Origin: Loktanella sp. D2R18
Lineage (GTDB): Bacteria; Pseudomonadota; Alphaproteobacteria; Rhodobacterales; Rhodobacteraceae
Assembly (NCBI RefSeq): GCF_003318235.1
Contig: NZ_QOCG01000006.1
Location: 1 to 64,000, forward strand
DNA: 64,000 nucleotides
Direction: 5' to 3'
Part shown: one piece after another, positions 95 to 48,482 of the stretch
Position numbering within the stretch: position 1 is the stretch's first letter
Layout: each line of letters opens with the position of its first letter
Made by a program: the position numbers and the translations under genes
Notes under the pieces: generated by a model
Database searches by the model: none
The model's input: the letters and a program-made list of their open reading frames with translations, nothing else
Told to the model about the DNA's origin: nothing

Positions 95-406
95 TTGCCA
101 CACATTCTTGATATGTTTTCGCTGCGTTCCCTGTGGCAATCATTTCTCAGCAAACACACCCTAGATGCCAGCATGAGCCGCCGTGGGAATTGTCACGACA
201 ACGCAGTTGTAGAAAGCTTCTTCTACCTATTGAAACGCGAACGGATCAGGCGGCAGACGTACCTCACACGCGACGCAGCAAGGCAGGACGTGTTCGACTA
301 CATCGAGATGTTCTACAACCCGACACGCAAGCACACCAACAATGGCATGCTGTCGCCGGTTGACTATGAAATGAAACAACAGAAAATGAACGAGGCAGGC
401 GTCTAG
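95..406 (+). pseudogene. IS3-family transposase OrfB, C-terminal remnant
   Basis: The 103-residue frame matches the C-terminal end of the DDE integrase core of IS3-family OrfB. It has WQSFL, then SMSRRGNCHDNAVVESFF carrying the final catalytic Glu, and the closing YIEMFYNP block. Full OrfB is about 270-290 residues, so the N-terminal two thirds, with the first two catalytic Asp, are gone. The homologous part begins only around base 125; the first codons are not transposase-like. The natural stop and the element's right end follow at once (414-424), so the truncation is at the 5' side. It cannot be active. Confidence 0.85.
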
Positions 407-7972: not shown

Positions 7973-8782
7973 TTACTCTCCCAATTCAAGACTTCGATCA
8001 CGCGACGCCTGCGATGCCTTTTTCATTAGATTGAACAGACCTGTGTCAGGTTTCATAAGAACCTGCAGGGCTTGCGCCGTTGTTCCACCCTTGGAAGTCA
8101 CAGCGTCGCGCAAATCTGACGGGGGAGCGGCGGATTCGCGCATCATCTGACTTGCGCCCGTGATCGTATAAAGCGCCAGTGTTGCTGCTAATTCCGCAGG
8201 CAAACCCATGGCTTCCCCTGCCTCTGCCATCGCTTCGGCCATTGCGAATACATAGGCTGGGCCGGATCCCGAAATGCCTGTCACCGCATGAAGCTGGTCT
8301 TCATCCGCAAGCGGGATCGCGACGCCGACCGCCCCCAACAGCGCATTTGTCAGGTGCTGTCGGTGATCGTCGACAAAGGTGTTGCATGCATAAGCACTGA
8401 CACCCGCGCCCACGGCCGAGGGCAGGTTTGGCATCACCCGCACCACGGGCGTTCCGGTGCCGAATGCAGCATCATATGTCGATAACGGGTAGCCCGTTAC
8501 AATTGTCAAAACCAGCGTTTCACCGCCGCCAAAATCGGACAGATCTGGCAAAACCTGCGCCAGCATTTGCGGTTTGACCGCAATGACCAGAACAGCGGGG
8601 CTATTGGGCAAGGGCGCATTTACCGAAATACCGGCTTGGGCCAACACCCAATCTGACGGCTGCGGATCTTGCACATGGATGGCATGAGCTTTCACACCTT
8701 TTGCCATCCATCCTTCTAGCATGGCTTGGCCCATGAAACCGCACCCTATCATCACAAGGCCACGTTCATTGATGTCGTTCAA
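7973..8782 (-). CDS. proC: Pyrroline-5-carboxylate reductase family protein (ProC)
   Basis: A 269-residue NAD(P)H-dependent imine reductase. The Rossmann nucleotide motif GCGFMGQAM is near residues 13-21, and the ProC signature region (TGISGSGPAYVF, then TSKGGTTAQAL) is in the C-terminal dimer domain. Length is normal. In the standard role it reduces delta-1-pyrroline-5-carboxylate to proline. Here it is translationally coupled (ATGA) to a class IV aminotransferase and near an aconitase X gene, whose known bacterial product is delta-1-pyrroline-2-carboxylate. A specialised imine-reducing role is therefore possible but unproven; it could also be the housekeeping ProC. Confidence 0.85.
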   Translation of the reverse strand: MNDINERGLVMIGCGFMGQAMLEGWMAKGVKAHAIHVQDPQPSDWVLAQAGISVNAPLPNSPAVLVIAVKPQMLAQVLPDLSDFGGGETLVLTIVTGYPLSTYDAAFGTGTPVVRVMPNLPSAVGAGVSAYACNTFVDDHRQHLTNALLGAVGVAIPLADEDQLHAVTGISGSGPAYVFAMAEAMAEAGEAMGLPAELAATLALYTITGASQMMRESAAPPSDLRDAVTSKGGTTAQALQVLMKPDTGLFNLMKKASQASRDRSLELGE

Positions 8783-9702
8783 AACGTGGCCCCCGTTTCG
8801 GCTGAGATCAGGTTTTTGTAGAGCGTGCGGATACGGTCCATGACGGGGCGATCCCCCGTGCCTATCTGTTTGCCGTCAATTTCAGAAACCGGCGTTTGAG
8901 CGCCGAAGGTGCCGGTCATAAACGCCTCATCCGCGCTATAGGTGTCGAACAGGGAGTAGTTGCGTTCAAAGACGGGAATGTCGTTTGCGTGGCACAAATC
9001 AATCACCTTTTGGCGGGTCACGCCGTTCATGCAGTAATCCCCCGTTGAGGTCCAAACTGCGCCCTTGCGCACGATGAAAAAGTTGCAGGCGTTGGTGGTG
9101 TTCACAAAGCCATGCGGGTCCAACATCAGGCCCTCGTCAGCGCCCATCTGTTCGGCCTGCAAACAGGCCAATACACAGTTCAGTTTGGAATGGCTGTTGT
9201 ACTTGGCGTCCTGACTCATCGGCAGGCCACGCACCTGCGGTACCGTCGCCAGACGGATGCCTTTTTGCAGGCCACGGGACGGTTTGGAATGTTCCATGAT
9301 GATGACCAACGTCGGTCCCGACCGGCTGAGCGACGGATGCTGGTAAGGTTTGATCTTTTTGCCACGGGTCAGCATCAGGCGGCAATGCGCGTCGCTGGTC
9401 ATGCCGTTGGCTTTGGCCGTCATGTCCAGCGCGTTCAGGATGCCGTCGCGGTCCATGCCGACATCGATTGAGGCCGCTTTGCAGGACCCGAAAAAGCGGT
9501 CCATATGTTCGTCAAAGAACGACCATTTGCCGTTGTACAGGCGCAGACCTTCCCACATGCCATCACCCAGCATGAAGCCGCTGTCATAGACGGATACTTT
9601 TGCCTCGTCGCGGTGAAAAATCTCCCCGTTGACGTAGACTTTAGTATCGAGGTTGCGGGGGTCTTCTTCGGAATCGTGGGACGTGGCTTTTGCGTCATTC
9701 AT
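8779..9702 (-). CDS. Class IV aminotransferase (branched-chain/D-amino-acid type)
   Basis: A 307-residue fold-type IV PLP enzyme. The N-terminal segment KVSVYDSGFMLGDGMWEGLRLY and the central KYNSHSKLNCVLACLQAEQMGADEGLMLD region, carrying the catalytic Lys, are characteristic. FVNTTNACNFFIV and the GVTRQKVIDLC block complete the family pattern. A ribosome site (AAAAGGA) precedes the ATG at 9702. Members include branched-chain aminotransferase, D-amino-acid aminotransferase and aminodeoxychorismate lyase; which reaction applies cannot be settled by reading. It is divergent from the aconitase X gene and couples to proC, suggesting a shared catabolic theme. Confidence 0.82.
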   Translation of the reverse strand: MNDAKATSHDSEEDPRNLDTKVYVNGEIFHRDEAKVSVYDSGFMLGDGMWEGLRLYNGKWSFFDEHMDRFFGSCKAASIDVGMDRDGILNALDMTAKANGMTSDAHCRLMLTRGKKIKPYQHPSLSRSGPTLVIIMEHSKPSRGLQKGIRLATVPQVRGLPMSQDAKYNSHSKLNCVLACLQAEQMGADEGLMLDPHGFVNTTNACNFFIVRKGAVWTSTGDYCMNGVTRQKVIDLCHANDIPVFERNYSLFDTYSADEAFMTGTFGAQTPVSEIDGKQIGTGDRPVMDRIRTLYKNLISAETGATF

Positions 9703-9747
9703 TGGATTGTCCTTTTGGAATGGTGGTGCTTGTATGGGTGAAACAGG

Positions 9748-9759
9748 GCGCAGCTGCGC
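9748..9759. promoter_or_regulatory. Perfect palindrome between class IV aminotransferase and acnX
   Basis: GCGCAGCTGCGC is a perfect 12-base palindrome in the 88-base divergent intergenic region, a plausible operator controlling both directions. GC-rich short palindromes also arise by chance, so this is tentative. Confidence 0.25.
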
Positions 9760-9790
9760 TTGGGATTAACAGTAAAAGGCGACGTATCTG

Positions 9791-11467
9791 ATGGATCAAA
9801 TCATTCTTTCCCATGACACGGGCGGCGCAATTTTGACCTGTGCGCAGGGCGTCAGTTTCTGGGGTGGCGTAAATGCGCAAAACGGCGTCATTCAAGACGC
9901 GCATCACCCGCAGCACGGGCAGTCCCTGGCGGGTAAGATCGTTCTGATGCCGACCAGCCGCGGGTCGTGTTCCGGCAGTGGTGTGTTGCTGGAACTGGCG
10001 CTGAATGGTCATGCGCCCGCCGCGTTGGTGTTTCATGAGGAAGAGGGCATTTTGACGCTTGGCGCGCTCATTGCCGCGCGCATGTTTGATCGGCCTGTGG
10101 CGGTCGTGCGTCTGTCCAAGGCCAGCTATGATCATTTGGCGGAGCAAGATCACGCCCGCATCGCAGGACGCCAGATTGTGGCAGACGGGCTGACCATCGA
10201 TCTGAGCGAGCTGGACGCCGAAACGCTGACGCTGACCGCTGCGGACAAGGCGATGTTGGCTGGGGAAGGAGGCGTTGCCGTCCAACTGGCGATGGAGCTG
10301 ATCCAGACCATGGCCACCGCTCAAGGGGCGGCAAAGTTGATCGATGTCACGCGGGTCCATATCGACGGCTGCATCTACGCGGGCCCTGCCAATCTGACCT
10401 TCGCCGCTGCGATGGCGGACATGGACGCGCGGGTAAAGGTGCCGACGACCATGAACGCGATTTCTGTAGATTTCGACAATTGGCAGTCCCAAGGCGTGCC
10501 GGACCTGTTTGGTACCCCTGCCAGCAACCTGGCTAGCGCCTATGTCGCTATGGGGGCACAGCCGACATTCACTTGTGCGCCCTATTTGGCCGATGATCGC
10601 CCCGTGGAGGGGGAAAATATCGGCTGGTCGGAATCCAACGCCGTGATCTTTGCCAATTCGGTGCTGGGGGCGCGGTCGGTAAAGCACCCTGACTTCTTCG
10701 ATCTGTTCGTCGCGCTGACGGGTCGCGCGCCGCTGTCGGATGTGTATCTGCCCAAAAACCGGCAGGCGCGGGTGCGTTTGACTGTCGATTTGCCCGAAAC
10801 TTATGATGAGGCGATCTGGCCCTTGATCGGTTGGGTCGCGGGGCAGCAGGCGCCCGACCAAATTCCGCTGATCGAAGGGCTTGGCGATGCTGGACTGAAT
10901 GAGGATGATCTGAAAGGGCTGTGCGCGGCCTTTGGCACCACGTCGGCGGCACCGATGCTGCACATTCAAGGCATCACGCCCGAAGGCGACCGGCCCGTTA
11001 TGCAGGGCGCGCCGCAGATCGTTATCACGGCGGATATGTTGGCGTCGGCGTGGGAAACGCTCAACTCCGGACCGGAGCAGGTCGATCTTGTGGCACTGGG
11101 AAGCCCGCATTTCTCGCTTTCCGAAACGCGGCGGTTTGCAAATCTGATGGCGGGGCAGACCTGTGCGGCACAAACGGCATGCATCATCACGCTTGGCCGC
11201 GAGACGTTTGTTCAAGCCGAAACGGAAGGTTTGATTGCAGCGTTGGAAACCTGCGGCGTGCGCATTCTGCGCGACCTGTGCTGGTGTTCGATTTCCGAAC
11301 CGGTCTTCCCCCCCCACGCGCGTCATCTGGTCACAAACTCCGGTAAATATGCACATTATGCCCCCGGTCTGTCTGGCCGGTCGGTGCGCTTTGCAAGCCT
11401 TGCCGACTGCGCCCGCGCCGCTGTAGCTGGACGGTTGGCCGAAGGTTTGCCTGATTGGTTGAAATAA
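9791..11467 (+). CDS. Aconitase X dehydratase, fused small and large subunits
   Basis: A 558-residue protein joining an N-terminal swivelling domain (DUF126; GVSFWGGVN, SRGSCSGSGVL, about residues 1-135) to a catalytic DUF521 domain (PTTMNAISVD, TCAPY with Cys262, GWSESNAVIFANSVLGAR, KNRQARV). This single-chain arrangement is the bacterial type I aconitase X. Characterised members dehydrate cis-3-hydroxy-L-proline to delta-1-pyrroline-2-carboxylate using an iron-sulfur cluster; archaeal relatives dehydrate mevalonate 5-phosphate. Neighbours include an amino-acid importer, a DadA-like oxidase, aminotransferases and ProC, so an imino- or hydroxy-amino-acid substrate is likely. A longer open frame on the opposite strand (9695-11515) is its shadow. 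Confidence 0.85.
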   Translation: MDQIILSHDTGGAILTCAQGVSFWGGVNAQNGVIQDAHHPQHGQSLAGKIVLMPTSRGSCSGSGVLLELALNGHAPAALVFHEEEGILTLGALIAARMFDRPVAVVRLSKASYDHLAEQDHARIAGRQIVADGLTIDLSELDAETLTLTAADKAMLAGEGGVAVQLAMELIQTMATAQGAAKLIDVTRVHIDGCIYAGPANLTFAAAMADMDARVKVPTTMNAISVDFDNWQSQGVPDLFGTPASNLASAYVAMGAQPTFTCAPYLADDRPVEGENIGWSESNAVIFANSVLGARSVKHPDFFDLFVALTGRAPLSDVYLPKNRQARVRLTVDLPETYDEAIWPLIGWVAGQQAPDQIPLIEGLGDAGLNEDDLKGLCAAFGTTSAAPMLHIQGITPEGDRPVMQGAPQIVITADMLASAWETLNSGPEQVDLVALGSPHFSLSETRRFANLMAGQTCAAQTACIITLGRETFVQAETEGLIAALETCGVRILRDLCWCSISEPVFPPHARHLVTNSGKYAHYAPGLSGRSVRFASLADCARAAVAGRLAEGLPDWLK

Positions 11468-19499: not shown

Positions 19500-20459
19500 C
19501 TATTTCCCATATGTTCTTTCTGCAATATCAAACTGGGAGATCTCCGTTTCGATCATAGAAAGGAAGGCCAACTCGGCCTCGGAATAGCGTCGGGCGGGAT
19601 TGCTGATAAGGTAAATACTGACTTCCGGCAGATCCTCGTAGGGCGGGAGCTGGCGGATATGCCCCGCAGCAACGTCATGCCGAGCGACATGAATCGGCAA
19701 AGCGCCGATCCCCACATTAGCCATGATCAAGCGCCGTATTTCATTCAGACTGGAAGAGGCGCCACGCCAGTTGCGCGATAGGTTCAAACGGGACCGTAAG
19801 ATGGAAATGATCTCGAGCGGTCCACCTTCAGCCTCGGTTTGAAAGGCAACGAAAGGTTCGCCTTCTAGATCTTCTTCGGAAATGTTTTCGGCGTTGAATA
19901 AGCGGTGCCGTGCCCCGCAGAATAGACCGAAATACTCTTTATAGAGCACCATTGTTTTCAGCTTCTCGGGATTGCGCGATAGCAGGCAAATCCCGAAACT
20001 TGACTGATTTAGGGCGACCATCCTCTCAACCTCGTCACTTTCGTTAACAAAGAACGAATAGGTCACGCCCGGATGAGCAGTCGAGAAACGATTAAGAAAA
20101 TCATCAAAGTGCTCAGAGACCACTGAACTGGTGATTGCAACGGACAAATGCCCCCTTAGGTCGGTATTGTCTTCATTCAATATAGTCGGAAGCTGCGATA
20201 CTGCCCCGAAAATCGTGGCGCATTCAGCGTAAAGTACCTGACCTGCGCGTGTGACAGTGAATTCGTTTGGTTTGCGGATGACAAGTATCTTGCCGACAGC
20301 TTGTTCCAGACGTTGGAGGGCCGAAGAAATTGTTGGCTGTTTCAAACCAAGGAAAACTGCAGCTTTCGATATGCCGCGCTGTTCCACGACCACCATGAAA
20401 GTGCGAAGCAAGTTCCAGTCAAGGTTCCAAGGAAAACGGTTACGATGGGGTGAAGTCAT
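19500..20459 (-). CDS. LysR-family transcriptional regulator
   Basis: A 319-residue LysR protein. The N-terminal helix-turn-helix (about residues 18-75) includes GISKAAVFLGLKQPTISSALQRLEQAVG; the rest is a periplasmic-binding-protein-like effector domain. It is transcribed divergently from the amino-acid importer and catabolic operon starting at 20601, the classic LysR arrangement, so it probably activates that operon in response to a pathway compound. A palindrome overlaps its start codon, suggesting autoregulation. Confidence 0.9.
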   Translation of the reverse strand: MTSPHRNRFPWNLDWNLLRTFMVVVEQRGISKAAVFLGLKQPTISSALQRLEQAVGKILVIRKPNEFTVTRAGQVLYAECATIFGAVSQLPTILNEDNTDLRGHLSVAITSSVVSEHFDDFLNRFSTAHPGVTYSFFVNESDEVERMVALNQSSFGICLLSRNPEKLKTMVLYKEYFGLFCGARHRLFNAENISEEDLEGEPFVAFQTEAEGGPLEIISILRSRLNLSRNWRGASSSLNEIRRLIMANVGIGALPIHVARHDVAAGHIRQLPPYEDLPEVSIYLISNPARRYSEAELAFLSMIETEISQFDIAERTYGK

Positions 20460-20600: not shown

Positions 20601-21377
20601 ATGACATTACGCCGTACGCTCTTAAAGTCGGCCATTGTCGCGGCTGGCTTTGCTGTCGCCGGGCTGAATGCTGCTGCCGCAGATGAATTGGAAACCCTCA
20701 AAGAAAACGGCGTCATCCGCATTGCGATGTCGGGCGCCTACCCGCCCTTTAACTTCGTGAACGATCAGAACGAAGTTGTGGGCTTTGACCCAGCCGTTGG
20801 CGCCGAGATCGCCCGCCGCATGGGCATGGAAGCCGAGATCGTGACCACCGCTTGGGACGGGATCATTGGTGGCCTCTTGGCCAACAAATACGACGCGATC
20901 GTTGGTTCCATGACAATTACGGATGAACGCGACGAGGTCGTTGACTTTGTGGGCCCCTACTATTCGGATAAACGCGCCATTTTTACCAACCCCGGCTCTG
21001 GCATCAGCACCCTTGAAGATTTGGAAGGTAAGCGCGTAGGCTTGACCCTTGGTGAGACACATGAAGACTGGGCGCGCGAGCGGGGCTACGACATCAATAC
21101 CTACAAGGGCCTGCCTGAACTTTTGCTTGAGCTGGAAAACGGGCGTGTCGATGCCATCGTGAACGATTCCATCGCTGCGATTCTGGCGATGAGCGCAAAG
21201 GAACAGGAATTCGAGATGTTCGCGGATCCCACAACCGAGCCTTTTGGAGCAGGTATTGCGATTCGCGAAGGCAACCCTGAACTGGCCGCTGAAATGCAGG
21301 CGGCGTTGGATTCCATGATGGAAGACGGCACCTACCTGCAGCTTGCCGAAGAGTGGATTGGCGCGGACATCCGCTAA
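20601..21377 (+). CDS. Periplasmic amino-acid-binding protein, family 3
   Basis: A 258-residue solute-binding protein with a signal peptide (MTLRRTLLKSAIVAAGFAVA, cleavage near AAAADE). The mature start LKENGVIRIAMSGAYPPFNF and the later GFDPAVGAEIARRMG are typical of family 3 amino-acid-binding proteins. The ATG at 20601 is preferred because GGAG lies eight bases upstream; an in-frame ATG four codons earlier has none. First gene of the LysR-linked operon. The binding protein itself appears intact although one of its permeases is frameshifted. Confidence 0.88.
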   Translation: MTLRRTLLKSAIVAAGFAVAGLNAAAADELETLKENGVIRIAMSGAYPPFNFVNDQNEVVGFDPAVGAEIARRMGMEAEIVTTAWDGIIGGLLANKYDAIVGSMTITDERDEVVDFVGPYYSDKRAIFTNPGSGISTLEDLEGKRVGLTLGETHEDWARERGYDINTYKGLPELLLELENGRVDAIVNDSIAAILAMSAKEQEFEMFADPTTEPFGAGIAIREGNPELAAEMQAALDSMMEDGTYLQLAEEWIGADIR

Positions 21378-21384
21378 GCACAAA

Positions 21385-21416
21385 GTTCCCCCCGTCATCG
21401 TTCATGGCGGGGGAAA
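21385..21416 (+). terminator. Hairpin after the binding-protein gene
   Basis: GTTCCCCCCGTCAT and ATGGCGGGGGAAAC form a long imperfect stem eight bases after the binding-protein stop and about 100 bases before the permease. Hairpins here commonly cut read-through so that the binding protein is made in excess of the membrane parts. Confidence 0.5.
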
Positions 21417-21520
21417 CTATCCTTGAAGAGGTCCACTTGGAGGCCTCTGACAATTAAAGAGGCTGCCTACCGGCTTAGGTGATGCGCTCGTTCTTGCGAG
21501 ATCAACAATAGAGGCGTGAA

Positions 21521-22167
21521 ATGGACATCGAACTGATGCTCAGGGTCTATCCGTTCTTTCTCGAAGCAGCTTGGGTCACCATCTTGCTTTCGATTCTCAC
21601 GGCGATTCTTGGCCTGATCTGCGGGGCGCTGGGGGCGGCAGCGCGATTGTCGCGCTTTGCACTCGTACGCTTTCTAGGGGCAGCCTATGTAAGCGTGTTT
21701 CGCGGCACCCCGGCGCTGTTCAACTGTTTATTCTCTACTTCGGTGGCCCTCAAATCGGCATTCAGCTGGACGCGTTCGAGGCAGGAGTCATTGGGCTGGG
21801 GATCAACGCCGGAGCCTACATGACCGAAACGATCCGCGGTGCAATCATCTCGATCGACAAAGGCCAGCGTGAAGCCGCCCGGACTTTGGGCCTGAGCCAG
21901 TGGCAGGCGATGTACAAAATAACCTTGCCTCAGGCCGCTCGCCTGATGGTGCGCCCACTTGGCGTCAACCTGAATATGCTGATCAAGGCGACCGCACTCG
22001 TTGCTGCGATTTCGGTCATTGAACTGACTTACACCGCGCAGCGCTACATCGGATCAACCTACAAGCCGTTCGAAATGTTCCTGTTGGCAGGGATTCTTTA
22101 CATGATCATCATCTATGTGACCGGCCGGGGCGTTGCCTGGCTGGACCGCAAAGTGCAGATCAACTGA
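21521..22167 (+). pseudogene. Amino-acid ABC transporter permease, frameshifted
   Basis: Two overlapping frames together make one HisM/GlnP-type permease. The first (from 21521) runs through MDIELMLRVYPFFLEAAWVT to VFRGTPAL and then loses homology. The second resumes at VQLFILYFGGPQIGIQLDAF and continues through DKGQREAARTLGLSQWQ to the normal C-terminus at 22167. One G appears lost near 21718-21719, where family members read PALVQLF. The intact product would be about 215 residues. As written it yields a 100-residue truncated protein, so this importer should be inactive unless the shift is a sequencing error. Confidence 0.85.
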
Positions 22168-22185
22168 CCTGGAAGGACAAAGAAG

Positions 22186-22842
22186 ATGGGTCTCGATTTT
22201 TCGGTTGTTCCACAATACCTCGATATCATCCTGCTGGGCTGTGCCTGGACGATCGGCATTACGCTCGCCGCTGCTGTGCTAAGCTTTTTCGGGAGGATCA
22301 TATTTGCGGTAATCGCACTTTATACACCTTGGGTCATTCGGCAGCCGTTTCGCCTGATTGCTTGGGTCTTCATGGGCACACCGCTGCTCTTGCAATTGTT
22401 CCTTATCTATTTCGGTCTTGTACAGATTGGGATCGACCTACCGGCTTTCTTAGCGGGCATCATCGGGTTGGGACTGCATTTCGCAGTCTATAACTCGGAA
22501 CTGATCCAGACTGCGATTCTATCCGTGGACAAGGGCCAGATGGAAGCTGCTCGCACTGTAGGGCTTAGCCGCGGTCAGGCCCTACGCAAGGTGGTTATTC
22601 CACAGGCAGTGCGCAGCGTTATCCCGCCAATTGGCAACAACATGATCGCGCTTCTTAAGGATAGCGCACTCGTCTCTGTCATCGGGGTGAGCGAACTAAC
22701 TCTATCAGCGCAGCGGGTGATTGGCCGAACCTATCGTCCATTTGAGTTTTATCTCATGGCTGCCGCTTTTTACTATGTCATCAACCTCGGTATGGAATGG
22801 GTGCTCAGGAAAATTGAACGCCGCATCTCTTTATCGCGCTGA
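22186..22842 (+). CDS. Amino-acid ABC transporter permease
   Basis: A 218-residue His/Glu/Gln-type permease, intact. It has hydrophobic spans, [16 protein letters not shown], the [27 protein letters not shown] docking loop and the C-terminal [13 protein letters not shown]. It lies 18 bases after the frameshifted permease, with an AAGGA site. It would pair with that broken partner; alone it is unlikely to form a working channel. Confidence 0.88.
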
Positions 22843-22858
22843 TCTCAAGGGGCCACAT

Positions 22859-23629
22859 ATGACCGATCAGAAAGACTTCGTCCAAATTCGCCACGCTCAA
22901 AAAGCCTTTGGGAAGCTCGAGGTTCTCAAGGATATCAGCCTGAACGTCGAGCGCGGGCAGATCGTTGCGATCATCGGTCCATCAGGATCTGGGAAATCAA
23001 CTTTACTGCGTGCCATCAACGATCTTGATCCTCTGACAGGGGGCGAAATCCTTCTAGATGGAGTGCAGGTGAACAAAACGCTGCCACACCGGCAATATGA
23101 AAAGCATATCAATGAAATGCGCCAGCAGATCGGTATGGTGTTCCAGCATTTCAACCTTTTTCCACATTTGACCGCACGCGAAAATGTCACCATGGCACCG
23201 AAGATGCTCAAGGGATTGTCCACAGAGGAAGCCGACGCACTCGCAGAAGAACAGCTTGATAAAGTGGGAATGCTTGAGCGTATAGATTACTATCCATCTC
23301 AGTTGTCTGGCGGTCAAAAACAGCGCGTTGCGATCGCGCGTGCTTTTGCAATGAGGCCTAAGCTAATGCTCTTTGATGAGGCAACATCAGCGCTTGATCC
23401 CGAATTGGTGGACGAAGTGAACCAGGTCATGAAGACGCTGGCCGAAGAACACATGACCATGATCATCGTTACCCATGAAATGGACTTTGCCGCTGCGGTC
23501 TGTGATCGGGTGCTGTTCATGGATCAAGGCGTTGTTGTTGAAGAAGGTCCGCCCGAGGTGGTGTTCAGGAACCCGACTCAGGAAAGAACCCGTGAATTCC
23601 TACGCAAGCATTTGGCAGGCGCGAAATGA
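22859..23629 (+). CDS. Amino-acid ABC transporter ATP-binding protein
   Basis: A 256-residue GlnQ-type ATPase. Walker A (GPSGSGKST), [14 protein letters not shown] signature ([15 protein letters not shown]), Walker B ([14 protein letters not shown]) and switch His (VTHEMDFA) are all present. The start at 22859, with AAGGGG upstream, is chosen over an ATG inside the previous permease. Its stop overlaps the start of the aminotransferase gene (ATGA), tying uptake to catabolism. Confidence 0.92.
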
Positions 23630-24978
23630 CCGACGAAACCTCTTATCTCTTTTATCAGTCGCGCAACCCACGCCCGTTTCTTGATCACGGCGAGGGCATC
23701 TACCTGTTCGATGAAGATGGCAAACGGTATATCGACGGTTCATCCGGGGCGATGGTATCCAATATCGGCCATTCCAATCCGCGTGTTCTGGCTAAGATGA
23801 AGGCCCAAATGGACAAGGCCACGTTCGGCTACCGTCTGCATTTCCGCACACACCCGTCCGAAGATCTGGCCGCCAAGACCGTGGCCATGACGCCTGACCG
23901 ATTGGATCGCGTGTTCTTTGTCTCGGGCGGGTCCGAAGCGGTGGAAAGTGCTGTAAAGCTGGCGCGGCAGTACGCGCTGACACAGGGGCAGTCGGAACGC
24001 TACCGGGTCATCTCCCGTTTCCCATCTTATCATGGCTGCACATTCGGCGCGCTGGAGTTGACGGGCTATGCCCCTTTGCGTGATCCTTTCGCGCCCATGA
24101 TGCAGGACATGCCAAAGATCGCGGCACCCGCGACCTATCTGGATCGGGACAACCTGACCGAGGAAGAGCGCGGCCTGAAATATGCCGAGCTTCTGCGCGA
24201 CAAGATCGAGGAATTGGGATCAGAGACTGTTCTGGCCTTCCTAATGGAGCCTGTCGGGGGTGCCTCGACCGGAGCACTTGTGGCGCCCGACAGCTATTAT
24301 GGCCGCGTGCGTGAAATCTGTGATGAATACGGCGTGCTGCTGATTTACGATGAGATCATGACCGGCGCGGGTCGGACAGGCAAGTTCCTAGCGGCGGAAC
24401 ACTGGGGCATCACCCCTGATATCGTGGCCATGTCCAAGGGCTTTGGTGCGGGCTACGCGCCACTCGGTGCAATTATTGCGGGCGCCCGTTTGGTCGAGCC
24501 GGTTCTAGATGCAGGCGGATTCCTGCATGGGTTCACCTATGCGGGCAATCCTTTGGCCTGTGCGGCCGGGCTAGCTGTACTGGAAGAGATGGAAGACCAG
24601 GGATTGATCGAAAACGCAGCGCGCATGGGCGAAGTGCTCATGGATGAATTGCGCGCATTGATGGATCGTTACCCCTTCATCGGTGATGTGCGCGGCAAAG
24701 GGCTTTTGACGGCGTTCGAGTTTGTCGCGGACCGTCACACCATGGCACCGCTTGATCCAAAGCTGAACGCCTACGAGCGACTTGTCGAACTGGCCTATTC
24801 ACGTGGCCTGATTATCTATTCGCGGCGCACAAGGGGCGGAAAAGAAGGGGACCATTTCCTTGTTGCCCCCCCACTAATCATCACTGAAGAGCAGATCCAA
24901 GAAATGATGGTAATCCTGCGTGACGCCTTGGATGCGTTTGCAGATGAAGTTGGTTTGTCAGTGGAGACGGCGGCATGA
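23626..24978 (+). CDS. Class III aminotransferase
   Basis: A 450-residue PLP aminotransferase with [14 protein letters not shown] (phosphate binding, about 101-114), YHGCTFGAL, Asp242 in [11 protein letters not shown] and aldimine Lys271 in MSKGFGAGY. It is coupled by ATGA overlaps to the importer ATPase and the CoA-transferase A gene. Being followed by a 3-oxoacid-type CoA-transferase and a thiolase, it could convert a beta-amino acid into the matching 3-oxo acid; omega-amino acids are the other common substrate class. This is inferred from gene order. Confidence 0.87.
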
Positions 24979-25667
24979 AGCTTCCTGATAAGCGATGCGC
25001 CATCCCGGACGCGGTTGCCAAGATCAAAGACGGCGACACAGTCATGGTCGGTGGCTTCGGCGTACCGGGCACGCCCATGACGCTGATCCATGCTTTGGTC
25101 GCACACGGTGCCCGGAACCTGACCCTGATCAAGAACGATGCGAATGAGCCGGGCATGGGCATTGATCACCTTTTGCAAAGCGGGCAGGCCACGCGCTTGA
25201 TCACCACACACCTTGGTTTGAACGGCACCGCGATTGCCTTGATGAATACCGGTAAGCTGGCAGTGGAATTCAATGCGCAAGGAATTCTAGCTGAACGCAT
25301 CCGAGCCGGTGGCGCAGGCATCGGCGCTATTCTCAGCGATATCGGGATCGGGACAGAATTGGCCAACGGCAAACAGGTCGTCGAAATGGAAGGCGAAGAC
25401 TATGTGGTAGAGCCTGCCCTGCGCGCCGATGTCGCCCTGATCCATGCTGATCGCGCCGACAGTTTTGGCAATCTGGCCTATGTCGCGACTGCTCGGAACT
25501 TTAACCCACTGATGGCAATGGCCGCCAAATGCGTCATCGCCGAAGCCGAGACTGTCCTGCCACTGGGTGAGCTTCGGGCGGACGATGTTCACACGCCCGG
25601 CGTATTTGTCGACCACGTCACAGCACTCGGCGAACTATCAAAGGAATACGTTGTTGTCCGACGTTAG
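24975..25667 (+). CDS. 3-oxoacid CoA-transferase family, subunit A
   Basis: A 230-residue CoA-transferase family I alpha subunit. The N-terminal CoA-binding glycine-rich stretch VMVGGFGVPGTP (about residues 24-35) and the GGAGIGAILSDIGIG segment are typical of AtoD/PcaI/ScoA-type subunits. It is flanked by the beta-subunit gene, which begins within it, and by the aminotransferase. Together the pair would move CoA from succinyl-CoA or acetyl-CoA to an organic acid, most likely a 3-oxo acid given the downstream thiolase. Confidence 0.87.
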   Translation: MKLPDKRCAIPDAVAKIKDGDTVMVGGFGVPGTPMTLIHALVAHGARNLTLIKNDANEPGMGIDHLLQSGQATRLITTHLGLNGTAIALMNTGKLAVEFNAQGILAERIRAGGAGIGAILSDIGIGTELANGKQVVEMEGEDYVVEPALRADVALIHADRADSFGNLAYVATARNFNPLMAMAAKCVIAEAETVLPLGELRADDVHTPGVFVDHVTALGELSKEYVVVRR

Positions 25668-26307
25668 AGAACGCATGGTGGCCCGCGCCGCGCGGGAAAT
25701 CACATCGGGCATGGTGGTCAATCTCGGGATTGGTCTGCCGACGAAGGTGGTCAATCATCTGCCAGCTGATTTCCCCGTGTGCTTGCATACCGAAAATGGC
25801 CTGACTGGTATCGGCCCGACCCTCTCCCCGGAGAAAGCGGATCGAAACTTGATCGATGCGGGTGGCGCCTATGTCTCCACAGTTCCGGGGTCGGCCTTTT
25901 TTGATAGTGCCACCAGCTTTGCCATCGTCCGGTCCGGTCGCCTAGATCTGACGATGCTGGGCGCGTTCGAGGTCAGCGCTGCGGGCGATCTAGCCAATTG
26001 GAAGATCCCCGGCAAATTCAGTCCCGGCGTCGGCGGCGGAATCGAGCTTGCGCAAAAAGCGCGGCGGGTTGTGGTTTTGACCACCCATACCGACCGCGCA
26101 GGAAACCCTAAGCTGAGGCAGACCTCTTCACTGCCGCTGACGGCCCGCGCTTGTGTTTCGCGGATTTTTACCGACATGGCGGTGATCGACGTTAGCGCAG
26201 ATGGTTTTGTCCTTGTTGAAACCGCAGACGGTATCAGCACCGCCGACGTGGTCGCGGCAACTGATGCGCCCTTGATCGTGCCTGATACGTGCCTGCCAAT
26301 ATTCTGA
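25654..26307 (+). CDS. 3-oxoacid CoA-transferase family, subunit B
   Basis: The beta subunit, 217 residues from a TTG at 25654. TTG is preferred because AAGGAA precedes it and it gives the family's usual N-terminus (SDVRERMVARAAREI); the next ATG is at 25675. The catalytic glutamate is in the conserved TENGLTG segment, which in this family forms the covalent glutamyl-CoA thioester; VNLGIGLPTKV and GGGIELAQKARRVVV are also characteristic. It overlaps subunit A by 14 bases. Confidence 0.85.
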   Translation: MSDVRERMVARAAREITSGMVVNLGIGLPTKVVNHLPADFPVCLHTENGLTGIGPTLSPEKADRNLIDAGGAYVSTVPGSAFFDSATSFAIVRSGRLDLTMLGAFEVSAAGDLANWKIPGKFSPGVGGGIELAQKARRVVVLTTHTDRAGNPKLRQTSSLPLTARACVSRIFTDMAVIDVSADGFVLVETADGISTADVVAATDAPLIVPDTCLPIF

Positions 26308-26315
26308 GAAGTCCA

Positions 26316-27608
26316 ATGCAAGATGACCTGAAGACCCGCCTGTGTGATGCCGTCGATCAAGAGTTCGACAGACAGATTGCTTTTTTGTCCACGCTGACCT
26401 CGCATCCTTCGACCCGCGGAAACGAGCAATCGGCCCAAAGCTTCATGGCCGATGAACTGGCCACGCGTGGCTATCAGATTGACCGCTGGCAAATTGATAT
26501 CGTTGACATCCAGCATTTACCGGGCTTTTCGCCAGTGCTGGCCCCCTACGAGGATGCAGTGAATGTCGTTGGCATCCACCGGCCCAAAACGCAGCAAGGC
26601 CGGTCGCTTATCCTGAACGGTCACATCGACGTGGTCCCTGCCGGGCCGCTGGACATGTGGGACAGTCCACCGTTTGAACCACGGGTCGCGGACGGTTGGC
26701 TTTATGGCCGCGGCGGCGGCGATATGAAGGCTGGTCTTGCGTCGAATCTCTTTGCGCTTGATGCGCTGACGACTTGCGGGCTTGGACCGGGGGGCGATGT
26801 CTATTTTCAATCCGTGGTCGAGGAAGAATGTACCGGCAACGGGGCGTTGGCATGTTTGGCGCGCGGCTATACCGCCGATGCAGCGCTGATCCCGGAGCCA
26901 TTTTCCGAACACCTTGTCACCGCCCAACTGGGTGTCATCTGGTTTCAAGTGCATCTAAAAGGCCTGCCGGCCCACGTCGCCTATGCCGGGAGCGGATCAA
27001 ACGCAATCGAGGCGGCCTTTCCGCTGATCCACGCTTTGCATGAGATGGAGCATCGTTGGAACGCGCCGGAAAACCGGCCCGCCGAATATGGGCATATGGA
27101 CCACGCGCTGAACCTCAATATTGGCAAGTTTGAGGGGGGCGACTGGACAAGTTCCGTTCCCGCGTGGAGTGTGTTCGACGTCCGCATGGCGATCTTCCCG
27201 GGACAGTCGATTGAGGCCGCCAAAGCTGAAATTGAACAAGTTATCATGGATGCGGCGCGTGAAAACGCATTTCTGCGGAACTCACTACCCGAGATCGCTC
27301 ATCACGGGTTTCATGCCGAAGGATACGCGCTATCGCGCGACAGCTCTGCGAACGCGACCTTGGCCATTGCGGCGCTGGACAATGCGCACGTAAGCGTCAG
27401 CGGAGAAGCCTTACAGCGCGAGGCCATAACTGCAACCACAGATGCGCGTTTTTTTGGACTTTATGCGGACACACCAGCATTGGTCTATGGCCCGCGCGCC
27501 GTAGCGATCCACGGGTTCAACGAACGCGTCGATCTTGAAAGCATGCGTCGCATCACCAAGGCAACCGCACTATTTATCGCCGATTGGTGCGGCACAGAAG
27601 AGATATAG
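26316..27608 (+). CDS. M20-family metallopeptidase/deacylase (ArgE/DapE type)
   Basis: A 430-residue metal-dependent amidohydrolase. The metal-binding GHIDVVPAG (His then Asp) and YGRGGGDMKAG (bridging Asp), then VEEECTGNGAL with the catalytic Glu, follow the ArgE/DapE/CPG2 pattern; a dimerisation domain lies in the middle. The ATG at 26316 follows the CoA-transferase stop by eight bases. It should hydrolyse an N-acyl or peptide bond. In this operon it may strip an N-acyl group from the imported amino acid. Confidence 0.85.
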   Translation: MQDDLKTRLCDAVDQEFDRQIAFLSTLTSHPSTRGNEQSAQSFMADELATRGYQIDRWQIDIVDIQHLPGFSPVLAPYEDAVNVVGIHRPKTQQGRSLILNGHIDVVPAGPLDMWDSPPFEPRVADGWLYGRGGGDMKAGLASNLFALDALTTCGLGPGGDVYFQSVVEEECTGNGALACLARGYTADAALIPEPFSEHLVTAQLGVIWFQVHLKGLPAHVAYAGSGSNAIEAAFPLIHALHEMEHRWNAPENRPAEYGHMDHALNLNIGKFEGGDWTSSVPAWSVFDVRMAIFPGQSIEAAKAEIEQVIMDAARENAFLRNSLPEIAHHGFHAEGYALSRDSSANATLAIAALDNAHVSVSGEALQREAITATTDARFFGLYADTPALVYGPRAVAIHGFNERVDLESMRRITKATALFIADWCGTEEI

Positions 27609-27618
27609 GGGCTATTTC

Positions 27619-28794
27619 ATGCGCGAAGCTGTCATTGTTTCAACCGCCCGCACACCGATTGGCAAAGCCTATCGTGGGGCGTTCAATAACCTAGAGGTTC
27701 CCAGTCTAGTTGCCCCTGCAGTCAAGGCAGCTTTAGCCCGCGCCGGATTAAGTGGCGGCGAGGTGGAAGAAGCCGTTTTCGGCTCGGCCCTGACGCAGGG
27801 ATCAGCTGGTATCAACGTCGCGCGCCATATCGTTCAGGCCGCTGGACTGCCGGATAGTGTGGCAGGGGCGACAGTCGACCGTCAGTGTGCCTCTGGCTTG
27901 AACGCGATTGCCATCGCATCCCACATGGTGCGCTGTGAAGGCGTAGATGTGGCGCTGGCCGGTGGTGTGGACAGCATTTCACTGGTGCAGAATGCGCATT
28001 GGAACAGCTACCGCTACCGCGACCCCTTGGTGCGTCAGGAATACTACCTTGGGATGCTCGACACGGCCGAGGTGGTCGCCGAACGGTATGGTGTCACCCG
28101 CGCGGCACAGGATGCCTATGCGCTGCAAAGCCAGATGCGCACAGCCAAAGCGCAGGGGGCGGGGATTTTCGCGGACGAAATCGTGCCGCTTGAAGCCGTC
28201 AAGCTTGTCACGGATAAGGGTACGAGAGACACCCGTGAAGAAACGGTGCACCTTGAGCAGGACGAGTGCAACCGCCCCGGCACCACAGCCGAAGGGCTGG
28301 CCAGCCTCGCCGCCGTGCAAGGCGAAGGCAAGACTGTCACAGCAGGCAATGCGAGCTAATTATCCGACGGGGCCGCAGCTTTGGTCGTCATGGAAGCGAC
28401 AGAAGCGGAGCATCGCGGGCTTGCGCCTCTTGGGGCACTGCGTGGCTTTGCCGTGGCGGGTGTTGCGCCCGAGGAAATGGGGATCGGCCCGGTGGTGGCT
28501 ATTCCACGCCTTTTGGCCCGCGCTGGCCTGACTTTGGATGACATCGATCTGTGGGAAATCAATGAAGCATTTGCCGCCCAACTGCTTCATTGCCGCGATG
28601 CTTTGTCGATCCCTGATGATCGGCTGAACGTGAATGGCGGTGCCATTTCCATTGGCCACCCCTACGGCATGTCCGGGGCGCGCATGGCGGGGCATATCCT
28701 GCTCGAAGGCCGCCGCCGGGGCGTGAAATGGGGCGTCGTTTCCATGTGCGTTGGTGGCGGACAAGGTGCGGCTGGCCTGTTCGAAATTTTCTGA
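27619..28794 (+). pseudogene. Acetyl-CoA C-acyltransferase (thiolase) with premature stop
   Basis: A thiolase-family gene. The first 246 codons run from MREAVIVSTARTPIGKAYRG through the nucleophilic Cys90 (VDRQCASGLNA) to TAGNAS. The next codon, at 28357-28359, is TAA where the family has Gln (AGNASQLSDGAAA). In the same frame translation would continue through INEAFAAQ, the active-site His ([16 protein letters not shown]) and the second Cys (CVGGGQG) to the normal end, 391 residues in all. A single C-to-T change (CAA to TAA) explains it. The truncated product lacks half the active site. Confidence 0.9.
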
Positions 28795-28804
28795 AGGTAT
28801 GACA

Positions 28805-29962
28805 ATGCAAACGCTCACGCCGCAACAACTTATGCAGCTAACATCGCTGCGGCACGAACTGCACCGCACTCCTGAAATTTCGGGTGAAGAACGCTCAACA
28901 GCCAAGCGTATCAGCGCCGAGCTTGAGGGGCTTGGGTCTGACCGTATCTGGCGTAATCTTGGTGGAAACGGCGTCGCGGCTGAGTTCAAAGGTGCAGCCC
29001 CTGGTCCCACTGTGTTGCTGCGTTGCGAACTTGACGGGTTACCAATCCGCGAACTGTCCGATCTGCCGCACAAATCCATGGTTGATGGCAAGGGTCACCT
29101 TTGCGGGCATGATGGCCATATGGTGTCCATGCTGGGCGTTGGTATGCGACTCACGCTTCGACCTGCGTCTGGCCGCGTGATCTTGCTGTTCCAACCCGCC
29201 GAAGAAACTGGTGCGGGCGCGAAGGCTATCGTCGAAGATGAGAGATGGGCGGAAATTCGTCCTGACTATGCCTTTGCCTACCACAATGTACCGGGCCGCC
29301 CGCTAGGGGAAATCGGGCTGCGTTCGGGGCCTGGCAATTGTGCGTCGCGCGGCATGCAGATTCTGCTTGAGGGAAAAAGTTCTCATGCTGCTGCACCCGA
29401 AGACGGGTTGTCACCCGCCAGTGCGATGGCCGCTCTGATGACCTCTTTACCGGCGTTGGGAAATGGGCAGATCGGGGATGATGATTTCGCGCTATCCACG
29501 CTGACGCACGCCCATTTGGGCGAGCCAACCTTTGGCATTTCACCCGCAGAGGGCGAGTTGCGGTTGACCCTGCGCACCATGTCAAACGCGCGCATGGAAA
29601 CGTTGATCGCCGACGCGCTGGCGGAGGTGGACCACAGAAAGGGCACGCTGAAGGTGGACGTCCATTGGCATGATATCTTTCCGTCCGTCGTGAACGATAA
29701 TGATGCAACGGCCATCGCACGAGAGACGGCTCTGGGATTAGGACATGCGATTAACGAAATGGACGTGCCAATGCGTTGGTCCGAAGATTTTGGGCGCATC
29801 GGTGATGACGGGCCCAAAGCGACCATGCTATACATCGGTGCAGGTGAGACACAGCCTCAGTTGCATAACCCCGACTATGATTTCCCTGATGCTTTGCTTC
29901 CCGTCGTCATCGACCAGTTCTGTGGGATTGTCGAAAGGCTGTTAGGCCCACCCCGATCATGA
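28805..29962 (+). CDS. M20D-family amidohydrolase (N-acyl-amino-acid/hippurate hydrolase type)
   Basis: A 385-residue hydrolase of the HipO/IAA-amino-acid hydrolase group. The N-terminal LRHELHRTPEISGEE, the metal-binding CGHDGHM, and FQPAEETGAGAKA are characteristic. ATG codons at 28799 and 28805 are possible; the second has the better distance from GAAGG. It would release an amino acid from an N-acyl conjugate. Two different M20 enzymes in one operon suggest that acylated amino acids are the natural substrates. It ends by overlapping the truncated alanine racemase (ATGA). Confidence 0.85.
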   Translation: MQTLTPQQLMQLTSLRHELHRTPEISGEERSTAKRISAELEGLGSDRIWRNLGGNGVAAEFKGAAPGPTVLLRCELDGLPIRELSDLPHKSMVDGKGHLCGHDGHMVSMLGVGMRLTLRPASGRVILLFQPAEETGAGAKAIVEDERWAEIRPDYAFAYHNVPGRPLGEIGLRSGPGNCASRGMQILLEGKSSHAAAPEDGLSPASAMAALMTSLPALGNGQIGDDDFALSTLTHAHLGEPTFGISPAEGELRLTLRTMSNARMETLIADALAEVDHRKGTLKVDVHWHDIFPSVVNDNDATAIARETALGLGHAINEMDVPMRWSEDFGRIGDDGPKATMLYIGAGETQPQLHNPDYDFPDALLPVVIDQFCGIVERLLGPPRS

Positions 29963-30308
29963 CCGTAGATAATCATCTTGGGTCGTGGTGCGAAATCCAT
30001 CTCGATCGGATTTCCCGCAATTTGAAGCTGACGCTCGGGCTTGTTCCCTCAGGACGCAGGCTCTGCGCGGTGCTCAAGGCCGATGCCTATGGCCATGGGA
30101 TCAAACAGGTCGTGCCCTTGATGCAGGCACAGGGCGTCAGATGTATCGGCATTACGTCAAATGCCGAGGCCCGCGCCGTGCGCAAAGCGGGATTCAACGG
30201 CACCATAATTCGCCGGCGCGCTGCGACACCTGACGAAATCGACAACGCATTGGACGCGCAGATAGAAGAACAAGTCAGTTCTATCGCCATTGCTGAAAGG
30301 TTGGCCTC
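29959..30308 (+). pseudogene. Alanine racemase, truncated by an IS3-family fragment
   Basis: About 116 N-terminal residues of a fold-type III alanine racemase. The PLP lysine (Lys40 in VLKADAYGHG) and ITSNAEARAVRKAGFNGTIIR are present. A complete enzyme is about 360-380 residues with a second catalytic Tyr in the C-terminal half, which is absent. Near 30306 the sequence switches to IS3 transposase in another frame; the alr frame runs on as nonsense to 30429. A racemase here would have supplied or removed a D-isomer for the operon. The junction is approximate. Confidence 0.85.
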
Positions 30309-30788
30309 AATCAAAAGTGGGCCGGAGACATCAGCTACATCTGAACCAGTGAAGGCTGGCTTTATCTGGCCGTCATCCTTGACCTGTACTCTCGCCGCGT
30401 CATCGGTTGGGTCGTCAGCAACCGGATGAAGCGAGATCTGGCGATCAGGGCATCAGATATGGCCGTTGCTTTGCGACAGCCGCCCGAAGGCTGCATTTAT
30501 CATACGGACCGCGGGTCGCAATATTGTTCCAATGAGTATCAACGTCGTCTTTCAAAGCATGGCTTCAAGGTCTCAATGAGTGGCAAGGGCAATTGTTACG
30601 ACAATTCCATGGTGGAAACGTTCTTAAAATCCTTCAAGGCAGAGCTGATTTGGCGGAACCGTTGGGAAACACGACGTCAGGCTAAGGGCGCAATATTCCA
30701 GTACATTAATGGCTTTTATAACCCGCGCCACCACGACTCATCGCTCGGCGGCAAAAGCCCCTTGGCTTTCGAGCGAAAGGCCGCATAA
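30309..30788 (+). pseudogene. IS3-family transposase OrfB, C-terminal half with internal stop
   Basis: In one frame the DNA reads NQKWAGDISYI, then TGA (30342-30344) where the family has Trp, then EGWLYLAVILDLYSRRVIGW. It continues through HTDRGSQYCS, SMSGKGNCYDNSMVETF and YINGFYNPRHHDSSLGGKSP, the three DDE catalytic blocks of an IS3-family integrase core. The N-terminal part and OrfA are missing, so this is a fragment whose 5' end is fused to the broken alr. It differs from the IS3 remnant at the left end of the window. Confidence 0.88.
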
Positions 30789-30974
30789 ATGAGTTGAGAG
30801 GCCGGAACATAAGCGCGACAAGACCACCTTATGCAAAGCTCTGTGTTGTTCTCATCCCATCAAACGCCAGCGACAATCAATATGTAAAGACAACAAAGTG
30901 CGCATCAAGACTGGCGGGTCACGCGCGGTTTTACCTGCGCGCGCTCGTGCCCATTGATGTATTTTTCGTGCAGG

Positions 30975-46101: not shown

Positions 46102-47519
46102 CAGTTAATCTCCGGCTTGGGCAGGGCGGCTTGGGCCGCGATGATCGTTGCTAGTTTTTCGGCAACATGTGGGGCTGGATCGCAGGATTTGCGTGTTTCC
46201 AAGCTGACGTGCAGCAAGAATTGATTGCAGGTCGCAACGACATCGCCGCGCGCATTTTTCATTTCGTGGAACAGCCGCAGCTTTTTGCCTGCCCCTTCAA
46301 GAATGTGGGTGGTTACAGTGATCGTGTCGCCCGCATGGCATTCATCAAGAAATTTCGTGTGGGTATCGACGGTGAAATAGCTAAGCCCAGATTTGATGTA
46401 GTCAGCATCTGCCCCAATCAAAGTCATCAACGCATCGGCGGCGTCAGACCACACCTGCCCATAGCGGCTTTCGTTCATGTGGCCGTTGTAATCGGTCCAG
46501 TCAATTGGGATCGCGCGTGCGACGCTGATAATTGGCTTGGTGAAATCAGGTGCCGTTTGGGCGCTAAGCCGTACATCATGTTCATTCAGCAACGCGCCAG
46601 CCCCCCAATCGCGCCCCTTAAGAGCCCGCATCATGGACACCAAATTGTCGTCGCGAATTCGTTCCAATTCACGGATAGAGTGTGCGCCGGATTGGGCGTC
46701 AGACTGATCTGCGATCATTGTCACCAATTCATCCGTCAGCTCTGGCACATCCATCAACTTGGTCCAAGGCCATTGCAGGCAAGGTCCAAATTGCGCGATG
46801 AAATGGGCCATGCCCGCTTCGCCGCCCGCAACGCGGTAGGTTTCAAACAACCCCATTTGCCCCCAGCGCAGACCAAAGCCAAAGCGGATCGCGTCATCGA
46901 TTTCTTCGGTTGTCGCAATGCCGTCTTTGATCAACCACAGGGCCTCGCGCCAGACGGCTTCTAGGAAACGATCCGCAATATGCGCGTCGATTTCTTTGCG
47001 CACCTTCAACGGCTTCATGCCGATGTCGGTCAACATTTCATGCGCGCGTGTCGTTGTCGCGTCGTCGCCGACCAATTCGATTAGCGGCAGCAGATACACC
47101 GGGTTAAAAGGGTGTGCGACGAAAATTTGCGCCGGGCGCAGGGCCCCTTGCTGTAGCTCGGATGGTTTAAAGCCAGATGTCGACGACCCGATCAACGCGT
47201 CTTCACGACAGTACGTTTGAACGTCTTTCAAGATGCTGTGCTTCATCTCAAGGCGTTCTGGTGCGCTTTCTTGAATCCAATCAGCGCCAGACACCGCCTC
47301 TGCAATTGTTGGAACGATTTTGATTTGTCCCTCAGATGGCAACGCAACCTCTGACAAGGCTGGCAAAGACCGCCGGGCGTTGGCCAGCACTTCGCTAATT
47401 TTACGTTCGGCTTCGGGATCGGGGTCAAATATTTGGACGTCCCAGCCGGACAACGCAAATCGCGCGGCCCAACCGCCGCCAATAACACCACCGCCGATGA
47501 TTGCTGCTAATTTGGTCAT
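46101..47519 (-). CDS. L-carnitine 3-dehydrogenase fused to a thioesterase domain
   Basis: A 472-residue fusion. Residues 1 to about 320 are a 3-hydroxyacyl-CoA-dehydrogenase-like enzyme with the NAD motif IIGGGVIGGGWAARF, SSTSGFKPSEL and HPFNPVYLLPLIELV, the pattern of L-carnitine dehydrogenase, which makes 3-dehydrocarnitine. From about residue 325 a hotdog-fold thioesterase follows (IDWTDYNGHMNESRYGQ). In known pathways the thioesterase hydrolyses betainyl-CoA to glycine betaine after the next enzyme has acted. It overlaps the cleavage-enzyme gene by four bases. Confidence 0.9.
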   Translation of the reverse strand: MTKLAAIIGGGVIGGGWAARFALSGWDVQIFDPDPEAERKISEVLANARRSLPALSEVALPSEGQIKIVPTIAEAVSGADWIQESAPERLEMKHSILKDVQTYCREDALIGSSTSGFKPSELQQGALRPAQIFVAHPFNPVYLLPLIELVGDDATTTRAHEMLTDIGMKPLKVRKEIDAHIADRFLEAVWREALWLIKDGIATTEEIDDAIRFGFGLRWGQMGLFETYRVAGGEAGMAHFIAQFGPCLQWPWTKLMDVPELTDELVTMIADQSDAQSGAHSIRELERIRDDNLVSMMRALKGRDWGAGALLNEHDVRLSAQTAPDFTKPIISVARAIPIDWTDYNGHMNESRYGQVWSDAADALMTLIGADADYIKSGLSYFTVDTHTKFLDECHAGDTITVTTHILEGAGKKLRLFHEMKNARGDVVATCNQFLLHVSLETRKSCDPAPHVAEKLATIIAAQAALPKPEIN

Positions 47520-48424: not shown

Positions 48425-48434
48425 ATTGATTTCC

Positions 48435-48450
48435 TTTGCGATTTCGCAAA
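48435..48450. promoter_or_regulatory. Candidate CdhR operator (perfect palindrome)
   Basis: TTTGCGATTTCGCAAA is a perfect 16-base palindrome in the 58-base gap between the carnitine operon and its divergent regulator gene. It touches the ribosome site of the cleavage-enzyme gene, so binding there could block both transcription and translation. Function inferred from position. Confidence 0.45.
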
Positions 48451-48482
48451 AGCCTACAAGGATTGAAACGCCATGATGTGCT

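Follow-up and report, generated by a model that had tools for sequence, protein, structure and literature searches.

The degradation of L-β-lysine via N6-acetyl-β-lysine was reportedly worked out in Pseudomonas by Barker's group (approximately 1979-1981), as a route in which the substrate is acetylated, transaminated, cleaved and deacetylated. The transaminase, keto-acid cleavage and deacetylase steps of β-lysine and N6-acetyl-β-lysine breakdown have been described biochemically, but we know of no genes assigned to them. Here we describe an operon of Loktanella sp. D2R18 that may belong to such a route. It lies in a stretch of 64,000 nucleotides (positions 1 to 64,000 of contig NZ_QOCG01000006.1, hereafter the window) at the left end of its contig in a draft genome of 3.65 Mb in 33 contigs. 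Its gene content makes it probable that this is an accessory operon for the import and degradation of an N-acylated β-amino acid, most likely N6-acetyl-β-lysine or β-lysine, which borders an accessory region and was recently damaged.

The genes are arranged in the order: solute-binding protein, permease A, permease B, ATPase, class-III aminotransferase, CtfA, CtfB, ArgE-type deacylase, thiolase, M20D amidohydrolase and an alanine racemase stub (Table 1). Orthologues from the operon of Yoonia sp. (locus L061) served as the reference for identifying the parts. An initial annotation, made from the window alone, had placed a permease frameshift at about position 21718, a nonsense codon in the thiolase gene at 28357-28359 and a racemase truncated by an IS3 fragment at about 30306, and had taken these lesions as signs of relaxed selection on a whole pathway. 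All three are present in the assembly. Residues 1-68 of permease A are encoded in one frame (21521-21724) and residues 64-215 in another (21709-22164); the two overlap at 21709-21724, which places the frameshift within this segment. The thiolase gene is interrupted by a TAA codon, with the Thiolase_N domain before it and Thiolase_C after it; apart from this stop, the alignment covers all 391 of 391 residues (89% identity). The racemase stub comprises only the N-terminal domain, the first third of a protein of about 371 residues. It aligns to residues 1-124 of 371, the final few lying beyond the join with the IS3 remnant, and the sequence from 30308 onwards matches IS3-type insertion sequences (IS) in other genomes of the genus. 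The missing C-terminal domain of this racemase was not found in a search of the genome, whose one alanine-racemase C-terminal domain is encoded at another locus, within an open frame of 374 amino acids (aa). The genes between the lesions align to their Yoonia orthologues without lesions, and the neighbouring genes tested look intact, as had been proposed.

The significance of each lesion was assessed from the operons of relatives. A search returned 51 loci, from which 11 distant ones were left out; the 40 named loci that remained (L022-L061, with at least 62% aminotransferase identity, and thus including L061) and two further operons from genomes of the genus (L085 and L086) make up a set of 42. 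A gene was counted as intact if it covered more than 90% of the L061 protein without an internal stop, and matches below 40% identity were counted as absent. In 41 of the 42 operons, among them those of Sulfitobacter marinus DSM 23422 (L026) and Jannaschia faecimaris DSM 100420 (L032), every gene present is intact. The exception is L052 of Tropicibacter naphthalenivorans DSM 19561 (8514-11176), in which the binding protein gene contains a stop codon, permeases A and B are fused by a deletion, and a further deletion fuses the ATPase and aminotransferase genes. L052 is evidently a second, independently damaged operon in which the importer was struck again.

Gene content also separates the three lesions from one another. 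Of 32 informative CtfAB-type operons, 12 lack the thiolase gene; the M20D and racemase genes are absent together from 15 of 42 (including L052, which is cut by the contig end), so the thiolase stop and the racemase loss strike optional parts. All 42 relatives have permease A, which is damaged only in L052; the permease lesion in the window, the sole one in the constant core, is predicted to be the most likely to matter. The three lesions are thus not equivalent. The operon could still be useful, with permease B working alone, another thiolase filling in and the racemase never having been essential; the lesions would then represent tolerated trimming instead of decay. The optional nature of the thiolase, M20D and racemase genes fits this explanation, as do the second alanine racemase kept in an open frame and the strong constraint on the intact genes (see below), but the only relative with a damaged permease A is one whose operon is itself broken, and we regard tolerated trimming as rather unlikely.

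Selection on the operon was estimated with one hand-written codon branch model on a fixed tree; among eleven operons, that of the window groups with that of L061 as its fully supported sister. For the eight intact genes, dN/dS (ω) was 0.045 on the branch leading to the window operon (95% upper bound at most 0.058), 0.065 on the background and 0.075 for L061; compared with a single ω, the stronger constraint on the window branch was significant (p 0.0009). Synonymous sites are near saturation on this branch, where the neutral time estimated from the eight intact genes is about 1.9 per codon. The gene of the LysR-type regulator, fitted alone and outside the set of eight, gave 0.047; control genes, fitted on a different tree from a different genome set, gave 0.050 (gcvPHT alone 0.037). 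Elevated dN/dS in the remaining operon genes, for which the initial annotation had suggested a test, was not found, although this comparison has no power for very recent decay. The pathway was thus in use over nearly the whole window branch.

The damaged genes behave unequally. Permease A has a window-branch ω of 0.018, falling to 0.004 after the frameshift. The rise in the thiolase gene (0.079 versus 0.041, p 0.11) is non-significant, and that in the racemase stub (0.184 versus 0.080, p 0.054) concerns 115 codons, which gives a hint that the racemase was lost first. Three lesions in one unit, together with these two raised values, would be in keeping with long-standing relaxed selection on the whole pathway, the stub being alone in approaching significance. 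Relaxation along the whole branch is, however, contradicted by the ω of 0.045 versus 0.065 in the intact genes. Full neutrality would predict hundreds of point lesions (272-841 under the assumptions made), not two; long-standing relaxation is thus highly improbable. If the branch carries 1.5 neutral substitutions per codon, and frameshifts arise at 0.07 per neutral substitution, the two point lesions correspond to a neutral period of about 0.4% of its length (95% interval 0.05-1.6%), and decay so recent would leave no trace in dN/dS. Strong purifying selection, named beforehand as an argument against decay, hence speaks against old decay and is compatible with a very recent one. Lasting relaxation is contradicted and only a recent onset survives, since the eight intact genes are more constrained on the window branch than elsewhere.

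Lesion density in the operon was compared with that in its surroundings using 184 kb of the window's contig and 172 kb of G024, which by gcvP DNA (88%; matches in 32 of 56 genomes) is among the two closest relatives in the genus. This comparison of frames, which cannot see wholly deleted genes, covered 113 orthologous frames (at least 100 aa and at least 60% identity), of which 14 were flagged and none contains a confirmed lesion. One of these, a seeming frameshift near 154.4 kb of the contig, proved to be an artefact of the start codon ahead of an intact frame, presumably that of ribosomal protein L25, and on inspection of their counterparts ten other flagged frames were read as over-long starts, shadow frames or divergent partners. 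For three short flagged frames (107, 182 and 164 aa) the comparison gave no counterpart of 90 aa or longer, so the tally stands at 0-3 lesions in 113 frames. Three of the 12 operon genes (LysR to alr) carry lesions (Fisher p = 0.0007 against 0/113, 0.012 against 3/113); without the IS event, two of 11 genes do (p 0.007 to 0.062). Lesions are therefore denser in the operon than in the surrounding contig. The reverse comparison, of 111 frames of this genome against G024, flagged 14 and bears on lesions in G024.

These counts also bear on the possibility that sequencing or assembly errors account for both point lesions and that, the racemase truncation alone being real, the operon otherwise works. 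The lesions are known from the assembly of one strain alone, and permease A remained nearly unchanged in protein sequence after the frameshift on the window branch, as if the gene were intact. With no confirmed lesion among the orthologous frames of the same contig, the probability of at least two errors in the operon is about 0.03 at the 95% upper error rate (0 lesions, 900 bases per frame assumed), a value that rises if the three short frames without counterparts are lesions. Errors are an unlikely explanation on this balance.

The end of the racemase gene coincides with a boundary in the chromosome. A frame at 30426-30785 aligns to positions 255-369 of the IS3 transposase profile NF033516, which has 369 positions. 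Its score of 136.7 bits falls short of the 160 bits required for a whole protein, of which only the end is left. The remnant comprises 519 bases to 30826 and lacks its left end; a complete element with both ends and a target duplication was not encountered. It is single-copy in the genome as searched, two other copies of the IS share 1231 bases with each other, and the eleven best other copies in the genus stop at the position equivalent to 30826. To the right of 30825-30827 the sequence is collinear with G024 and a second genome of the genus, G039 (approximately 90% identity, with breaks further right); a more sensitive search placed the G024 junction at 30825. These two observations show that the right end of the IS abuts the core chromosome. 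The left part of the IS3 element and the 3′ two thirds of the racemase gene are gone.

Leftward of the junction this collinearity ends, and in the search used the next 20 kb of G024 had no match to the window. Within 1.3-19.4 kb of the window the longer matches in six genomes of the genus, for which 40 of 74-107 candidates were scored in each, are only patches of about 2 kb or less with 64-74% identity. The aminotransferase gene occurs at 85% identity or more in four of 56 genus genomes, G024 and G039 not being among them, and at 61-66% in four more; it was found in 88 of 395 genomes of the family (E up to 1e-150) and on 16 plasmid records. Judging from these alignments, the operon lies where an accessory region of at least 30.8 kb ends, and the racemase damage is best attributed to the events by which this boundary arose, rather than to pathway decay. 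A C-terminal fragment of an IS3-like transposase, recognized from its translation, lies at window positions 95-406, beside the left end of the contig and on the other side of the accessory region. In the sister genome, that of Yoonia sp., an IS21 transposase gene (L061:17683-18528) lies just past the racemase gene, and thus an IS adjoins the right end of the operon in both genomes.

The relaxation proposed for this pathway is therefore partly supported: the lesions are clustered, absent from 41 of the 42 related operons and real in the assembly, but they form a group of unequal lesions with different causes and indicate at most a recent relaxation.

The function of the operon was approached through the enzymes that follow the aminotransferase. 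In 33 of the 42 relatives these are CtfAB and an ArgE-type deacylase, whereas nine (L039, L040, L041, L043, L044 and L056-L059) have a BKACE protein (PF05853) and a histone-deacetylase-type enzyme (PF00850), the families being assigned on L039 and L059 (the latter from Roseobacter sp. MED193) and the other loci matched to L059. No operon among the 42 contains both modules within 9 kb at more than 40% identity; these counts ignore shared ancestry. By gene content, a deacylase or deacetylase (ArgE-type or acetylpolyamine-type) is present in all 42, one being cut by a contig end. BKACE enzymes and CtfAB with a thiolase both act on β-keto acids. The two modules fit a shared logic in which a β-amino group would be converted to a β-keto acid, followed by CoA-dependent cleavage and amide hydrolysis. 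Two unrelated module pairs behind one importer and aminotransferase narrow the substrate to an N-acylated β-amino acid, for which N6-acetyl-β-lysine or β-lysine is our best guess.

The best Protein Data Bank (PDB) matches of the histone-deacetylase-type enzyme are acetylpolyamine amidohydrolases (3men, 9gkz and 6phr), and those of the BKACE are two uncharacterised DUF849 proteins, followed by 3-keto-5-aminohexanoate cleavage proteins; against the profile of the latter, NF052387 (Kce), it scores 225-244 bits (cut-off 382). A GNAT acetyltransferase, which reaches no NCBIfam cut-off, is encoded in five of the 42 operons, four BKACE-type and one CtfAB-type (L045:11422), never together with the M20D or racemase gene; the window operon lacks it. 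Sixteen plasmid records matched, six of which were examined. The rhizobial plasmid operons of Shinella and Phyllobacterium have the order aminotransferase, BKACE, GNAT, deacetylase (GNAT at L146:11283-11777 and L149:9274-9774), while the plasmid stretch L148 has no gene annotation on record. Lysine 2,3-aminomutase (TIGR03820) was found in none of 16 chosen operon-bearing genomes, which makes uptake of the substrate more likely than its synthesis in the cell, and an endogenous route from lysine was set aside.

In the proposed pathway, the ABC (ATP-binding cassette) importer would take up the solute, the aminotransferase would convert its β-amino group to give a β-keto acid, CtfAB would form the CoA ester, and a thiolase, either that of the operon or another in the cell, would split it. 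Deacylation by the ArgE-type enzyme would yield, for example, 4-aminobutyrate. The permease frameshift would stop or weaken uptake, leaving the pathway idle or on its way out, and young damage would explain why the intact genes still show long purifying selection. Several observations weigh against this interpretation. The four BKACEs of the alternative module that were tested pass the NCBIfam cut-off of 430 for a 3,5-dioxohexanoate enzyme (507-533 bits), which is not a β-lysine enzyme. Two CtfAB-type operons (L049 and L050) have a distant histone-deacetylase-family match about 7 kb upstream (30-35%, below the identity threshold), and the enzymes of the Phyllobacterium plasmid operon have no adjoining importer of this kind. 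The M20D and racemase proteins have no clear place in the pathway, and permease B, which resembles permease A (52% over the part tested), might replace it.

It is possible, though somewhat less likely than not, that the wider operon family supplies the genes for β-lysine or N6-acetyl-β-lysine breakdown (transaminase, keto-acid cleavage and deacetylase), with two unrelated modules swapping in the same place. The literature search, among open-licence papers, yielded no title assigning genes to this pathway, and the sections consulted of PMC4619459 and PMC6522883 do not describe them. An excerpt of PMC1224877 presents N-ε-acetyl-β-lysine as an osmolyte of methanogens. If the proposal is true, marine Rhodobacterales would be consumers of this osmolyte, closing part of its cycle, and there would be named genes to test for a pathway known to us only from biochemistry. 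This functional reading matters more than the decay: as a decaying operon the locus is ordinary, and it shows how a comparison of gene content separates a core lesion from losses tolerated by relatives.

Features of the operon are summarized in Table 1. The M20D amidohydrolase shows a weak similarity to DoeB2 (NF038260, 178 bits, cut-off 550).

Table 1. Genes and other features of the operon region in the window; identities refer to the L061 (Yoonia sp.) orthologues.
Feature	Coordinates	Strand	Basis and remarks
LysR-type regulator, divergent from operon	19500..20459	-	Intact; 85% identity to L061
Family-3 solute-binding protein, amino-acid ABC importer	20601..21377	+	PF00497; 94% to L061
Permease A, frameshifted between 21709 and 21724	21521..22167	+	L061 alignment; intact in 41/42 relatives
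Permease B, intact	22186..22842	+	Sequence comparison with L061
ABC importer ATPase, intact	22859..23629	+	Sequence comparison with L061
Class-III aminotransferase, intact	23626..24978	+	PF00202; 92% to L061
3-oxoacid CoA-transferase subunit A (CtfA), intact	24975..25667	+	TIGR02429 above cut-off
3-oxoacid CoA-transferase subunit B (CtfB), intact	25654..26307	+	TIGR02428 above cut-off
ArgE/DapE-type M20 deacylase, intact	26298..27608	+	NF005306 above cut-off; PF01546
Thiolase with internal stop at 28357-28359	27619..28794	+	L061 alignment; Thiolase_N, Thiolase_C
M20D amidohydrolase, intact	28805..29962	+	TIGR01891 above cut-off
Alanine-racemase stub, N-terminal third	29959..30306	+	PF01168 only, no C-terminal domain
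IS3-family 3′-terminal remnant; right end = accessory/core boundary	30308..30826	+	IS3 transposase profile; IS copies in the genus

Two further loci of the window were distinguished. A second BKACE gene (47516-48688, minus strand; 32% identity to the BKACE of L059) adjoins a gene for a 3-hydroxyacyl-CoA dehydrogenase/thioesterase fusion in a putative carnitine operon. An Aconitase X (AcnX) gene (9791-11467, plus strand) is surrounded by minus-strand genes that encode ProC, an amino-acid importer, an aminotransferase and a protein resembling FAD D-amino-acid dehydrogenases. A minus-strand frame of 606 aa that covers the AcnX gene gave no match in Pfam or NCBIfam and looks like a shadow frame.

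Compared with known systems, the patchy distribution of the operon, the IS remnant at its junction, the truncated neighbouring gene and the clustered lesions resemble IS-marked accessory boundaries and pseudogenised accessory operons in general, from which there is no fundamental difference; the second broken case belongs to another genus and has different lesions. The deacetylase of the alternative module resembles acetylpolyamine amidohydrolases of the histone-deacetylase superfamily, but it occurs in the context of β-keto acids and not of polyamines, and in the window operon an M20 deacylase takes its place. The BKACE of that module is homologous to the 3-keto-5-aminohexanoate cleavage enzyme (Kce) of clostridial lysine fermentation; unlike in that fermentation, lysine 2,3-aminomutase was found in none of the 16 operon-bearing genomes searched, and another keto acid would serve as intermediate. 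The Pseudomonas β-lysine route differs in that the operon has its own importer and that operons of the window type have the M20D and racemase genes and no acetyltransferase. With that route the operon family would nevertheless share N-acetylation, transamination to a β-keto acid, CoA-dependent cleavage and deacetylation, whose predicted counterparts in the relatives would be the GNAT protein (in some), the aminotransferase, BKACE or CtfAB with or without the thiolase, and the deacetylase.

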